In this document: positions 49,449-55,918 of the stretch, one piece after another
Numbering within the stretch: position 1 is the first letter of the stretch
Layout: each line of letters begins with the position of its first letter
Origin: Candidatus Scotarchaeum otlingeri
GTDB lineage: Archaea > Thermoproteota > Nitrososphaeria > Geothermarchaeales > JDFR-13
Length of the DNA stretch: 64,000 bases
NCBI GenBank assembly: GCA_002011075.2
Contig: MTMA02000006.1
Location: 1,480,599-1,544,598, forward strand
Reading direction: 5' to 3'
The notes under the pieces: model-generated
The model's database searches: none
What the model was told of the DNA's origin: nothing
The model's input: only the letters and a program-made list of their open reading frames with translations
Made by a program: the position numbers and the translations under genes

Positions 49449-50180
49449 ATGAGTCTTATAGACCTGAATAATGTCACCAAAATATATGGTAAAGGTAAAA
49501 CCGCTGTAACCGCATTAAAAAAGATTTCTCTAAGCGTAAATGAGAAAGAAATTGTTATAATTATGGGGCCCAGTGGTAGCGGTAAGACCACATTACTCTT
49601 GGTAATGGGTGGTCTTCTAAAGCCTACTATGGGTACTGTTAGGATTAACAGTATAGATATAACTAGTCTTTCAGAGAAACAGTTACCTAAAATCCGTAAG
49701 AAATACTTTGGATTTGTTTTCCAAAGTCCAAATCTATTATCTTCACTTACTGCGATTGAAAATGTGGAGATAGCTCTAAATCTAGCAGGCGTCAATGGAG
49801 AAAAAGCGAGAACTAGGGCAAAGACGCTTCTTGAGAAATTGGGTTTAGCCGAAAGACTGAATCATCTTCCATCCGAATTAAGCGGTGGTGAGCAACAGAG
49901 AGTATCCATAGCGAGAGCTCTAGCTAATAATCCCAAAATAATATTAGCTGATGAGCCTACCGCTAACCTAGATTCTAAAACGGGACGCGAAGTCACCGAA
50001 TTTCTATGTAGAATAGCCTGTGAAGAAGGTAAAGGAGTAGTTATTGTTACCCATGATGAGAGGATCAAGTATATAGCAGATAGAATATTGTATTTAGAAG
50101 ACGGAAAAATAATTAGAGAGATAAAGACTGGGAAGAAAAAGAGAGAGTGGATGAAACATACTGTGGAAACCCCATCCTAA
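49449..50180 (+). CDS. LolD/MacB-type ABC transporter ATPase
   Basis: GPSGSGKTTLL, LSGGEQQRVSIARAL, ILADEPTANLDS. Confidence 0.95.
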   Translation: MSLIDLNNVTKIYGKGKTAVTALKKISLSVNEKEIVIIMGPSGSGKTTLLLVMGGLLKPTMGTVRINSIDITSLSEKQLPKIRKKYFGFVFQSPNLLSSLTAIENVEIALNLAGVNGEKARTRAKTLLEKLGLAERLNHLPSELSGGEQQRVSIARALANNPKIILADEPTANLDSKTGREVTEFLCRIACEEGKGVVIVTHDERIKYIADRILYLEDGKIIREIKTGKKKREWMKHTVETPS

Positions 50181-50312
50181 ATATCTACATTTTAAACTGT
50201 TTTATGAAGTTTAGTTCTGGTTCAAAAATCTTTGAAAAGACAATAAAAAATCTTTGATTTTTCAAATGAACGCTCCATTTATTAATCTATAGAGTAGAGA
50301 CTATGAAACGTA

Positions 50313-51572
50313 ATGATAGGGAAAATCAATACAGAAATAATCGACTATAGTGTTAAGTTGGATATTTCAAGATATCGGTCCATACTTGTTGCCTCCTCAA
50401 GGGAAGATACTTTAATACCATTAATCATGAAGGCTTGTAAAATGGTTCAGTGTCCATTCATATTTATTGATCCCTGGGGGATATGGAGCAAGGTTAGAGT
50501 AAATGATATCAGGATATTAAGCCTTAAAGTAGGTGTCGACCTAAGGTTTAATCCTATTCTCCACCCGGAGAACATTTCACCGTCTCTACATACGGATCTA
50601 CTTCATCATCTAATTATAAACTTAAATCGCTATTTTAAACCCCGATTTCCAGGATACTGGAGTTTAGTCTTTTGTCAGACGATAGAGAAAGTTTCGAGCT
50701 CTCAAATGGATCTTTCCGAAGTCTTTCTCAAGATAGATGAATATACCGAGGCTTCCAGCGGTCTAGAGAAATATGCTTATGTCTCTCTAAGAAATATCGT
50801 TCGAGAAATCTTTTCTAGAGAAGAATTCAAATATTTCGATACTGACAAGAGACTAACCCTCGACATCTTATTAACAAGCTTATCCAATTTCGACGGAATA
50901 CTCTTAGAGCTATCGTTGATGAAGAACAGCTTAATAAGAAGCCTCCTCACCGGCATATTAACATATTATATACTTAATACCAATAACTCGCGTGTTGAGA
51001 TTACTCTTTTGTTAGGTGAACCTGAACCACTATATACATCACCTAGTTTATGTAATTTACTTGGTCCCAATAAAAGTAGGAGGCGCCTAATATTTTTTGC
51101 TGAAAGCCCAAGTCTACTAGATAGAAGCTTTTTAACCAAAATTGATCTAATTATAGGTGAAAGGTCCTATCGTACCTATTTCGCTCCCCGCAAAAGTAAC
51201 ATATCAAACAAGTACTTTCTACTTAAGGATGATGTGATTATCAACTTCAATACCGCAGATCTAAATTTAGAAGAATATGAAGAAAAGACTACTTATATAA
51301 CATCGGAAGAAGAAGATCTAATATCTCTATATAAAGAGCTTGTTGTCTCGATAATAAGCCTACTGCATAACCATGGGGGAATGGGGCTTAAAGGCATTAT
51401 AGCGTTAAACCCCTCATACGGGCCATCCACTATATATAGAGTTGTAAATCATCTCTTGGACCAAAATTATGTTAGGTTTAAACAAATCGGAAGTCAACGG
51501 ATCCTCACTCTCTCAGTTAAAGGACTTATGTATTATAGAAAAGTGATTAGGCATGGTGGTAAAGAGATTTAA
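50313..51572 (+). CDS. HerA/VirD4-like protein with no recognisable Walker A, C-terminal winged helix
   Basis: ILVASSREDTLIPLIMKACKMVQCPFIFIDPWGIWSK...VDLRFNPI resembles the HerA/TraG layout without GxxGxGKT; C-terminal HTH GLKGIIALNPSYGPSTIYRVVNHLLDQNYV. Confidence 0.5.
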   Translation: MIGKINTEIIDYSVKLDISRYRSILVASSREDTLIPLIMKACKMVQCPFIFIDPWGIWSKVRVNDIRILSLKVGVDLRFNPILHPENISPSLHTDLLHHLIINLNRYFKPRFPGYWSLVFCQTIEKVSSSQMDLSEVFLKIDEYTEASSGLEKYAYVSLRNIVREIFSREEFKYFDTDKRLTLDILLTSLSNFDGILLELSLMKNSLIRSLLTGILTYYILNTNNSRVEITLLLGEPEPLYTSPSLCNLLGPNKSRRRLIFFAESPSLLDRSFLTKIDLIIGERSYRTYFAPRKSNISNKYFLLKDDVIINFNTADLNLEEYEEKTTYITSEEEDLISLYKELVVSIISLLHNHGGMGLKGIIALNPSYGPSTIYRVVNHLLDQNYVRFKQIGSQRILTLSVKGLMYYRKVIRHGGKEI

Positions 51573-52563
51573 GCTAAACACGATACCTAAGTTGAACGTT
51601 GTTTTCCAAGGAGGTCTAGGTGAGGAGAGCATGATACATATTTATGGCCCTTATCAAGCTGGAAAGACCATCCTTTCCCTTCAATTAATATATGAGGTTC
51701 TAAGCCAAGAAAAAATCTCCGCCCTTTACATAGATGTAGAATCATCAATAAAAAACAACTTTATAGATGAAGGTTATATCGATAACTTCAATAACCGTTT
51801 CGATTTTAAGTTATTACATCAGGATGTCGCGATAGAAACATACGCCAAAAATAATAAAAAGAGGAAAAAGGAAATATCAGAAGTCAAAAAAGTATTTATG
51901 ACAATTCTAGATGAATTAGAGCTACAATATGACAAAGTGGATCTAGAGGATGCTCTTAAGGCATTTATCAAAGAGCTTCAGTTACGAGCAGATTCAAAGA
52001 AACAGAACTGTTTATACCTCCTAACAGGAATAGGGCTTGAAGATATGTTTAAACTTTTAGACATAGAGGCCAGCATATCTAGTGTAGGAGATAAGCTGGA
52101 GGTAAATGTAAAGTATTGTGGTGATCCCCTCAAAAGCCCCCTATCAAAGTTCATTAGAAAATACAATATAAAGCTCATTGTGATTGATAGCTTAGGTAGT
52201 TTAATCAAGAATATGCCCACAAAGCCACAATATCTACCCGCCAGAGCATCTGCTCTAAATCTTATGCTGACTAGTTTTATGAAGATGACAGCGGCCTATA
52301 AATTGATCATACTCGCAACAAATCACGAGTCTATAAACCCGATAGGAAAAGGATTCCCTGTCTTCTACGGAGGCATATCGGTAGGCTATAGCTTTAAATA
52401 TAGTCTGCATCTCACGAGAAAAGGCGTTAATAGGATATTGATAGTAGAAAGAGCGCCACACCTACCCGATAGATCCATTAAGATACCTCTAACTATAGGG
52501 AAAGACGGATTTCATGTCTTAAAGGAGAATGTGGAGGAAGCTTATGATGAAACTCATCAGTAA
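51553..52563 (+). CDS. RadA/RecA-like ATPase paralogue with a large insertion
   Basis: Walker A GPYQAGKTILS, ALYIDVESS, Walker B LIVIDSLGSL, ATNHESINPIG; about 110-aa insertion between them. Confidence 0.75.
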   Translation: MVVKRFKLNTIPKLNVVFQGGLGEESMIHIYGPYQAGKTILSLQLIYEVLSQEKISALYIDVESSIKNNFIDEGYIDNFNNRFDFKLLHQDVAIETYAKNNKKRKKEISEVKKVFMTILDELELQYDKVDLEDALKAFIKELQLRADSKKQNCLYLLTGIGLEDMFKLLDIEASISSVGDKLEVNVKYCGDPLKSPLSKFIRKYNIKLIVIDSLGSLIKNMPTKPQYLPARASALNLMLTSFMKMTAAYKLIILATNHESINPIGKGFPVFYGGISVGYSFKYSLHLTRKGVNRILIVERAPHLPDRSIKIPLTIGKDGFHVLKENVEEAYDETHQ

Positions 52564-52900
52564 ATTGATACTATTTATTATCATAGCGGGATTCCTTACT
52601 TTATTTCTAGCATCAGCTGTAAAGACAGGTAAACCATATAATATTGCTCTAGCGACATCCATAGTGATAGCAATCTTTGGTTATCTAATGCTAAAGCCTT
52701 TACATATTAGTCCATTAAGATATCCTAAGGCCTTCATAGGAGTTCTATTACTCCCCTTTATAATAATATATCCGCTTCTCCTCGTAATTTTAGTTATAAT
52801 CTTTATATTCTCAAAACCTGGAAGAACAGTGATAAATAGTCTAAGGCTCATCATGGGACTCATCATTATACGACTTATGAGTGATGATAATGATGAATGA
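52529..52900 (+). CDS. Small multi-TM membrane protein
   Basis: About three hydrophobic segments; overlaps both neighbours. Confidence 0.7.
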   Translation: MWRKLMMKLISKLILFIIIAGFLTLFLASAVKTGKPYNIALATSIVIAIFGYLMLKPLHISPLRYPKAFIGVLLLPFIIIYPLLLVILVIIFIFSKPGRTVINSLRLIMGLIIIRLMSDDNDE

Positions 52901-54209
52901 GAGGCAAAAAACCCACTGGTATTCTGGCTATGTTCATAACGATAATTTACATAATTTATTACAATACTTAGTTGCCCAGCCGAATCTAAATAGTTTAGTG
53001 TTATCATTAAACTATAGGAAAAAAGATTATATACTCGGTTTAAGGGGTAAATGTCTGGATAAAGTTCTAGATGATATATCCAAATCACATAAAAATCCGT
53101 TCATAGGCATAAAGGGAACGAGATGGCTGGAATTTGAAGAAAATAGATATGCATATATTGTTAAGTTAACTCATTATAACCCAGGAGTGATTCATGAATT
53201 ACTTACAAAACTTCATGATAAAATACGCGACTTAGGCATCGTTGTAGCTTATCATAGAAGAGAAGGAGACAATAAAAACGCAAAAACTTATCTATTAGCA
53301 TACACTCACAAAGAAAATATAAAACATGTATCCAGGGTTATAAAAAAACTTGGAGAAGAAAGCGAGTATACTTTAGTCTCTGCAAATATTCTGGATATAA
53401 CAATACTCAAAAATGAGTTAATTAAATGCACATGTATCCATCCTATAATGGGCTTTGAAGAGGCTCTAGAAGTAGTAGAGTCTTTTATAGATGGTCCAAT
53501 ATACCTCAGATATAACGAAATACCCAAATATATACAGAGAGGGCATAGAAGCCTATACTATGTAAATGCATTTATCAGTAAGCAAATCGATTCAGATGAA
53601 TATTTTATTATTAAAATATCTGATAAAAACGAAGGATCGCCCGCCAATTTATACAATTTATCAAGAAAAAATATTTTAGATATAATAGATAGTATGCCCA
53701 TAATATCTATTTCTAATGTAAATTTACGGCATATCTATAATGTTCTAAGTGAATTCATAACATTTCCCGATATCTATCTACTTCTCTATATGACTATGAC
53801 GAATATTAACATGGACAGCCACATCTTAAATCAGATAACTACTCAGCTAAAAAATACACGGATTTACACTAAAAATAATAATTTAAATCTGTGTACTGGT
53901 GAAGCGTCTATATTGGTTAGCTTACCAATCCTCTTTAATGCTATTAAAAAGGCGGTATCCAAATGTGTAGTCATAGAAGATAGGCTGGGAGTATTAGATA
54001 ATTTAGAAGAAAATATGTTGATTCAGCTACTACGATTTTTAAAGGGATTAACAGAAAAGGTTGTAATAGCTACTTCTAAATTCAATCCTCTCATTATGGA
54101 GGCATCTGACTATACGATAATAGCGGTAACCAATAAATATGTAAGAGATTATATTAAGAGAAGATACGGTATGACCTACTATTCATTTTCCGGATACATT
54201 TTAATCTAG
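52881..54209 (+). CDS. Hypothetical 442-aa protein, possible degenerate P-loop fold at C-terminus
   Basis: Long ORF overlapping upstream gene; KCVVIEDRLGVLDNLEENMLIQLLRFLKGLTEKVVIATSKFNPL resembles a Walker B-like strand. Confidence 0.7.
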   Translation: MMIMMNERQKTHWYSGYVHNDNLHNLLQYLVAQPNLNSLVLSLNYRKKDYILGLRGKCLDKVLDDISKSHKNPFIGIKGTRWLEFEENRYAYIVKLTHYNPGVIHELLTKLHDKIRDLGIVVAYHRREGDNKNAKTYLLAYTHKENIKHVSRVIKKLGEESEYTLVSANILDITILKNELIKCTCIHPIMGFEEALEVVESFIDGPIYLRYNEIPKYIQRGHRSLYYVNAFISKQIDSDEYFIIKISDKNEGSPANLYNLSRKNILDIIDSMPIISISNVNLRHIYNVLSEFITFPDIYLLLYMTMTNINMDSHILNQITTQLKNTRIYTKNNNLNLCTGEASILVSLPILFNAIKKAVSKCVVIEDRLGVLDNLEENMLIQLLRFLKGLTEKVVIATSKFNPLIMEASDYTIIAVTNKYVRDYIKRRYGMTYYSFSGYILI

Positions 54210-54323: not shown

Positions 54324-55070
54324 ATGAAAGAGGAATGGTATACTGATTTTTTCGATAAGTTATATTACGAAACATATGCTCCTTTCGAGGAGGAAGAAAG
54401 AAATAGGAGGGAGGCAGAGTTTATAGCTAAGGCCCTCAATATAAAGCCAGGTGAATTAGTTTTAGATTTAGCATGTGGATATGGTAGGCATGCCTTAATC
54501 CTGTCTCAAATGGGGTATAGGGTAGTCGGGCTCGATCTTAGCGATACATTACTAGAAATCGCCATGAATACTGCAAAAGCAAAAAATATCCCCGAAGATG
54601 TACTCAGATTTGTCAAAGGAGACATGAGAAGCCTTCCCTGGAGGGAGGAGTTCGATGGAATATATTGCTTTTATACAAGCTTTGGTTATTTTTCCCATCA
54701 AGAGAATATTGAGGTATTATCTGAAGTAAATAAGTCTCTAAAAAGGGATAGGTGGTTTTTATTAGACATATGGAATAGGGAAAGAATGATAAGAGAATTT
54801 AGGGAGAGATACTGGTACGAGTCGGGGGGATACCTAGTTCTAGAAGATAGGAAGCTAGATCTTACAGAGATGGAGATGAGGGAAAGAAGAATATTTATAA
54901 AGGGTAATAAACAAATTGAACGACAAATCAAAATAAAGTTTTATAGCGCTAGAGAAATTATTGAGATGCTGAAAACAACTGGATTTAAAGAAATAAAACT
55001 ATATGGTGACTATAAGTTTAGTAAATATGATATTAATAGCCCTCGTATGGTGGTTGTAGCTAGGAAGTAA
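54324..55070 (+). CDS. Class I SAM-dependent methyltransferase
   Basis: VLDLACGYGRHALILSQMGYRVVGLDLSDTLLEIA. Confidence 0.92.
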   Translation: MKEEWYTDFFDKLYYETYAPFEEEERNRREAEFIAKALNIKPGELVLDLACGYGRHALILSQMGYRVVGLDLSDTLLEIAMNTAKAKNIPEDVLRFVKGDMRSLPWREEFDGIYCFYTSFGYFSHQENIEVLSEVNKSLKRDRWFLLDIWNRERMIREFRERYWYESGGYLVLEDRKLDLTEMEMRERRIFIKGNKQIERQIKIKFYSAREIIEMLKTTGFKEIKLYGDYKFSKYDINSPRMVVVARK

Positions 55071-55150: not shown

Positions 55151-55918
55151 ATGAGGCGACTCGATATGTATTGGGTTTTAAGTGATTTGAAGTGGCCTGA
55201 GGCTGAGAAAATAATTAAACAGATAGATTTAGCTATCATTCCCACGGGAAGCATAGAGCAACATGGTCCACATCTTCCTTTGATAAATGACTATGCCTTA
55301 GCAGAGGCTATTGCCAGAGCCGCGGCAGAAAAAAGTAAGTCAAAAGTCCTTATCGTTCCTGTAGTTATGGCCGGAGTATCGGAGCACCATATGAAGTTTC
55401 CGGGAACTATTACTATTAAGTCTGAAACTTTTATGTCCATACTATTTGACGTCGCAGAGAGCCTAAAGAGACATGGAGTAAAAAGGTTAGTTATTTTAAA
55501 TGGACATGGAGGAAACACTCCATCAATCCAATTAATATTGAGAAGAATAAGAGAAGAATTGGGTTTAACTGTTTCTGCAATAAATTATTGGCAATTAATT
55601 CCTGATGTTATAGATAAGGTTCTGGAAAGTAGAGTATGGGGGCATGCAGGGGAATTTGAGACATCTGTCGCCCTTTATATTTATCCAGATAAAGTGGCAA
55701 AAAAGAAGATACGAAAACCTAAGTTAAGAAAACTTTCTCTGCCATACTCTAATCCTAACGAAAAAGTTAGGGTATATCTACCTATAAATTGGGAGGAATA
55801 CACAGATAATGGAGTTTTAGGAGACCCCACATTAGCATCTGCAGAGAAAGGAGGAATACTTATAAATGCATTACTAGATAGAATTATACAGTTCATAGAA
55901 TCTTTTTCTTCATACTAG
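55151..55918 (+). CDS. Creatininase-family amidohydrolase
   Basis: AIIPTGSIEQHGPHLPLINDY, VILNGHGGNTPSIQLILR, WGHAGEFETS. Confidence 0.92.
   Translation: MRRLDMYWVLSDLKWPEAEKIIKQIDLAIIPTGSIEQHGPHLPLINDYALAEAIARAAAEKSKSKVLIVPVVMAGVSEHHMKFPGTITIKSETFMSILFDVAESLKRHGVKRLVILNGHGGNTPSIQLILRRIREELGLTVSAINYWQLIPDVIDKVLESRVWGHAGEFETSVALYIYPDKVAKKKIRKPKLRKLSLPYSNPNEKVRVYLPINWEEYTDNGVLGDPTLASAEKGGILINALLDRIIQFIESFSSY

Follow-up and report, generated by a model that had tools for sequence, protein, structure and literature searches.

A RadA-related ATPase, a predicted HerA-type protein without an ATP site and a membrane protein form a conserved gene cluster in Nitrososphaeria, a candidate membrane-anchored DNA-handling complex

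The four genes described here may encode one membrane-anchored DNA-handling complex, in which a predicted RadA-related protein (RAD) would be the ATPase and a catalytically dead protein of predicted HerA type (A) would be the DNA-binding scaffold, with a chromosomal task as its likely job. We regard this reading as plausible but tentative. The genes were found in a window of 64,000 nucleotides (the whole stretch of DNA that was analysed) from Candidatus Scotarchaeum otlingeri, the assembly of which has a size of 1.69 Mb. As claimed in a first-pass annotation made from the letters of the window, positions 50313-54209 carry four consecutive + strand open reading frames, in the order A-RAD-C-D, which overlap at all three junctions. 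The features are as follows.

50313..51572, + strand: A, predicted HerA/VirD4-type fold without Walker A, with a C-terminal winged helix at approximately residues 341-413
51553..52563, + strand: RAD, predicted RadA-related ATPase without the RadA N-terminal domain, assigned from Pfam KaiC/Rad51 models, profiles and tree
51646..51669, + strand: Walker A of RAD (GPYQAGKT, residues 32-39), located by pattern search and present in 41 of 41 copies
52207..52245, + strand: loop-1-like stretch of RAD (K219-R231), aligned with the L1 loop of the RadA proteins that the RAD-bearing genomes encode
52529..52900, + strand: C, small membrane protein with ca. four transmembrane helices, predicted N-in/C-in from hydropathy, charge count and position in RAD-bearing family members
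52881..54209, + strand: D, soluble protein of 442 aa without detectable homologue

The A/RAD, RAD/C and C/D overlaps measure at most 20, 35 and 20 nt, respectively; these lengths are maxima, since C could also start in frame at ATG 52544 or 52547 and D at ATG 52884, 52890 or 52893. Upstream, an ABC transporter gene ends at 50180, leaving a gap of 133 nt before A, and downstream a separate methyltransferase gene begins at 54324. The stretch TTTATTAA at window positions 50277-50285, ca. 30 nt 5' of the A start codon, is TATA-like and would fit a leaderless transcript. A creatininase-family gene is situated near the module (window 55151-55918), and such a gene is also found beside the module, on the opposite strand, in loci of another host family, f3 (cluster c4, L054-L058); this proximity is likely due to chance.

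The core of A showed no match to Pfam, NCBIfam or PDB sequences, while its winged helix gave weak matches, the C-terminus resembling DNA-binding winged helices including AspA and MarR/PadR-like ones. An AF2 model of A built from 13 sequences (pLDDT 69.7, pTM 0.64) had TrwB (E = 2.1e-5), HerA (3.4e-5) and VirB4 (9.5e-5) as its top Foldseek matches, with a probability of 1.00 and TM-scores that were modest (0.36-0.47). An independent sequence profile test agreed with the structural match to HerA: the A profile hit HerA-type proteins of the same genomes at 7e-7, and the control comparisons with KaiC, RadA and RAD gave 0.35, 0.065 and 0.094 (all single-comparison E-values). The A profiles of different families were connected with each other (f1-f3, 1.9e-5; f5-f11, 1.3e-6; f3-f5, 2.9e-4), and the identity among A proteins was 10-21%, reflecting quick divergence. 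On the basis of the model, A is predicted to have the core fold of the HerA/FtsK superfamily. None of the 39 copies of A that were tested has a Walker A motif (0/17 and 0/22), and the f11 copies carry a TEAH remnant at the place of Walker B. The earlier label 'HerA-like' is thus apt for the fold, from AF2/Foldseek and from the profile, and does not extend to a P-loop. The same genomes encode, at other places, DUF87/HerA-type ATPases with intact motifs; in the window's genome, five matches of this type exceed the cut-off, all at other places and none of them A.

RAD matched the Pfam KaiC/Rad51 models and remained far below the NCBIfam equivalog cut-offs (38 bits with the RadB model, the cut-off of which is 172); its matches to the KaiC and ArlH models were partial. 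Compared as profiles, RAD and the RadA of the same genomes matched at E = 4.5e-23 over 236 columns, as against a 67-column match with KaiC. In the trees, RAD formed a separate clade (support 100) that was placed, on a long stem and with moderate support (81/83), next to RadA rather than KaiC, and it did not cluster with the RadA that the same genomes also encode. The marks of the RecA/RadA superfamily, namely Walker A, the Glu after strand 2 and Walker B, are all present, and Walker A, the DTE glutamate, which we take to be the catalytic one, and the Asp-Ser of Walker B are conserved in 39 of 39 sequences. Positions identical in all 39 are G32, G37, K38, D61, E63, D212, S213, K219, P229, R231, H258, P263, G273, G274, K282, R300 and G319, and the invariant positions total some two dozen. 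Families f3, f5, f8 and f11 have retained the Glu of the Walker A form GE..GKS, and f1 has Pro, Ala or Arg in its place. According to the alignment with RadA, RAD begins at the RecA core, the N-terminal helix-hairpin-helix domain and the polymerisation motif being absent; its DTE motif and Walker B are set apart by additional, inserted segments; and its K219 and R231 occupy the aligned positions of two arginines in the RadA L1 loop. The L1 arginines of RecA/Rad51 contact DNA. Judged from its sequence, RAD constitutes a distinct family of RadA-related ATPases, and calling it a RadA paralogue, as was done at first, proved right in view of the profile match to RadA and the separate, RadA-adjacent clade.

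Two other proteins of this superfamily were observed. G095, a genome of the same class, encodes a RadB-like protein of 243 aa with a long branch in the tree (L085:1411-2139), though RadB has been described as euryarchaeal only (PMC5480776). The window's genome (G000) encodes a further divergent RadA/KaiC-like protein of ca. 264 aa (G000:C6:26611-27108; L093), and a similar-looking protein occurs in G003 (L106).

The hydropathy of C, with about four hydrophobic segments, confirms its description as a small membrane protein. In 16 of 18 proteins, small and fused forms of C taken together, K/R residues are more numerous on the N-terminal side, which favours an N-in/C-in topology. In f3, f5, f8 and f11, the membrane part runs on into a soluble domain within one fused gene; in f1, the window's family, a gene of its own encodes the soluble part (210-442 aa), D in the window being the longest. 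The term 'orphan' was well chosen for D: no homologue of it was detected in 150 other related genomes, and its profile gave no significant match to D of relatives, A, HerA or fused C; both C and D diverge fast. Position, size and topology suggest that D is the counterpart of the soluble part of fused C, with profiles that do not match. A HerA-like look of the D C-terminus was dropped after the profiles of D against A and HerA gave nothing, and the fold in the AF2 model of fused C (pLDDT 41.6) was not used.

A membrane-tethered signalling or transcription module, with RAD as a KaiC/ArlH-like switch, A as a winged-helix regulator and C/D as a membrane sensor, would be in keeping with the MarR/PadR-like end of A, the partial KaiC and ArlH matches of RAD and the fast, sensor-like divergence of C and D. 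We consider it unlikely, since RAD groups with RadA and not with KaiC both in the trees and in the far longer profile alignment, RAD retains the L1 basic residues, and the core of A is predicted to be of HerA type.

RAD homologues were located by an alignment-based scan; a single-sequence peptide-pattern scan of the genome contigs gave none. Of 400 genomes sampled from the class, 45 matched the RAD profile at a threshold of E < 1e-25, and all carriers belong to families f1, f3, f5, f8 and f11. In a sample of 400 genomes drawn from the phylum, RAD was present only in G000 and G095, both of the same class. Outside the window's family, carriers in the class are labelled Nitrososphaeria or Thaumarchaeota MAGs, and the record of one has the prefix JACIWG01, which is the name of the deepest-branching order of the class (PMC10833072). 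The first-pass annotation had named conserved co-occurrence across relatives as its test and scattered or unlinked genes in relatives as its refutation. Strong co-occurrence was found in place of scattering: RAD is immediately preceded by A in 40 of the 41 loci examined, that is, in 18 of 19 loci of a first set, with the exception of L061, which has RAD and C without A, and in 22 of 22 further loci, 20 of which have C by profile and one more (L062) by tblastn. A membrane protein follows RAD in nearly all 41 loci, often overlapping it. The same gene order, usually with overlaps, was seen in the 10 RAD-carrying genomes of f1, and the A-RAD-C core recurs in families other than f1; because of this recurrence, the arrangement is beyond chance and is not an accident of one genome. 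Genes outside the core vary between families and are metabolic or housekeeping; OGT, rhomboid and class-V aminotransferase genes, which are conserved outer neighbours in part of the family, were judged to be housekeeping and not parts of the module.

The RAD tree contained one clade per host family, indicating vertical descent. Since, in addition, a phage search with RAD gave no match and a plasmid search gave only a short RadB match, RAD is host-encoded and vertically inherited. Two irregular cases were observed. At L055:8071-9226, two overlapping ORFs of 234 and 175 aa take the place of an intact A, suggesting a frameshift in the MAG or a pseudogene, and three f11 genomes (G628, G657 and G721) have two or three RAD matches each, which may be contamination, fragments or real duplication.

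RAD and A might instead be a soluble recombination-mediator pair, to which C and D are loosely connected and in which RAD acts on RadA in the manner of RadB, a RadA paralogue and mediator that has been reported only from Euryarchaeota (PMC5480776). RAD is without the RadA N-domain and RadA is present in the same genomes, as such a pair would have it; nevertheless, the position of C after RAD in nearly all loci, often overlapping, argues that the membrane part belongs to the unit, and we think this alternative quite improbable.

The first-pass annotation had also drawn an analogy with Ced, and a DNA import or exchange machine working like Ced/Ted, in which C/D form the membrane part and RAD loads incoming DNA, was weighed as well. 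Ced is composed of CedA, CedA1, CedA2 and CedB, and Ced and Ted have in common a VirB4-type ATPase, a channel and a pilin (PMC9905601, PMC11868833). The likeness lies in a HerA/VirB4-type protein, here A with its predicted fold close to VirB4 and TrwB, that is linked to small membrane proteins in an archaeon. However, A has no P-loop and is hence no active VirB4; C has ca. four transmembrane helices as compared with the 6-7 of a CedA-like channel and the two of the pilin; no channel or pilin gene was recognised in the loci; and a RadA paralogue is present. The analogy is therefore not supported, and we rate an import machine as improbable. A decaying or selfish remnant without host function is scarcely credible: the loss of the P-loop and the quick divergence of A would fit it, but the genes are intact and linked across several families and RAD keeps its invariant positions. 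A defence-system reading was rejected on the grounds that the PADLOC matches were only weak (best, mad8, E = 0.0017, in the P-loop region) and that the distribution is even and vertical.

A membrane-associated DNA-handling module is thus the leading reading, because the co-occurrence is conserved and the genes are not scattered in relatives. Where the first-pass annotation had left the choice between an uncharacterised membrane-associated module for DNA processing or transfer and one for signalling, it is the membrane DNA-handling part that is now favoured. In the proposed complex, C would anchor the assembly at the inner membrane face and present a cytoplasmic domain, fused in most families and separate as D here. 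A would be a scaffold of HerA-like form that binds DNA with its winged helix, and RAD, bound to A as the sole ATPase of the complex, would hydrolyse ATP and contact DNA through its L1-like loop. The task would likely be chromosomal: DNA would be held, loaded or moved at the membrane in the course of recombination or segregation, in analogy to an FtsK-type machine that has passed its ATPase duty to a separate RadA paralogue. Counting against this complex are the modest TM-scores of the A model, the missing profile match between split C+D and fused C, and the locus that lacks A; besides binding DNA, winged helices can serve in protein binding or regulation.

It is possible, yet more doubtful, that the module represents a membrane DNA machine of a new class, which Nitrososphaeria lineages use to recombine or segregate their chromosomes or to exchange DNA, and in which a HerA/FtsK-type protein without ATP hydrolysis serves as scaffold and DNA reader and a RadA-derived ATPase does the work. 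If this is true, the scaffold and the motor of a HerA/FtsK-type DNA machine lie in different proteins, the one catalytically dead and the other of RecA type, and an archaeal recombinase paralogue is tied to the membrane. How deep-branching Nitrososphaeria segregate their chromosomes and exchange DNA is poorly understood. For these little-known, heat-loving archaea, the module offers a defined, testable gene set that is spread over a large family, one member of which has a single-contig genome.

All recognisable parts of the module belong to known superfamilies. A description of the A-RAD-C-D gene set was not found in the libraries or open-access papers searched, subscription journals being mostly outside the search, and we know of no described system with this composition. 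The module lacks tested defining features of Ced/Ted, active HerA, FtsK and RadA. RAD resembles RadA/Rad51 and RadB in the RecA core, the Walker motifs, the L1-like basic residues and the C-terminal strands, and differs from them in the absent N-terminal helix-hairpin-helix/polymerisation region, the inserts, the fixed linkage with A and C and the separate clade. A shares the predicted core fold and an all-helical insertion with HerA of the HerA-NurA helicase, whereas it has no Walker A, ends in a winged helix and has no recognised NurA gene adjoining it. The TrwB/VirD4 coupling protein and VirB4 are the best structural matches of A, which differs from them in being without an ATP site and in having no recognised relaxase or secretion genes nearby. 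FtsK has four membrane helices, a HerA-FtsK fold and a winged helix. In FtsK/SpoIIIE, by analogy, the same elements of four transmembrane helices, a HerA-FtsK-type fold and a C-terminal winged helix make up one functional unit; unlike the single protein that combines membrane helices, motor and winged helix, the module has its parts on separate genes, its motor fold appears dead and a RadA paralogue has been added. FtsK would thus be the closest working analogy, with the motor duty moved to RAD.
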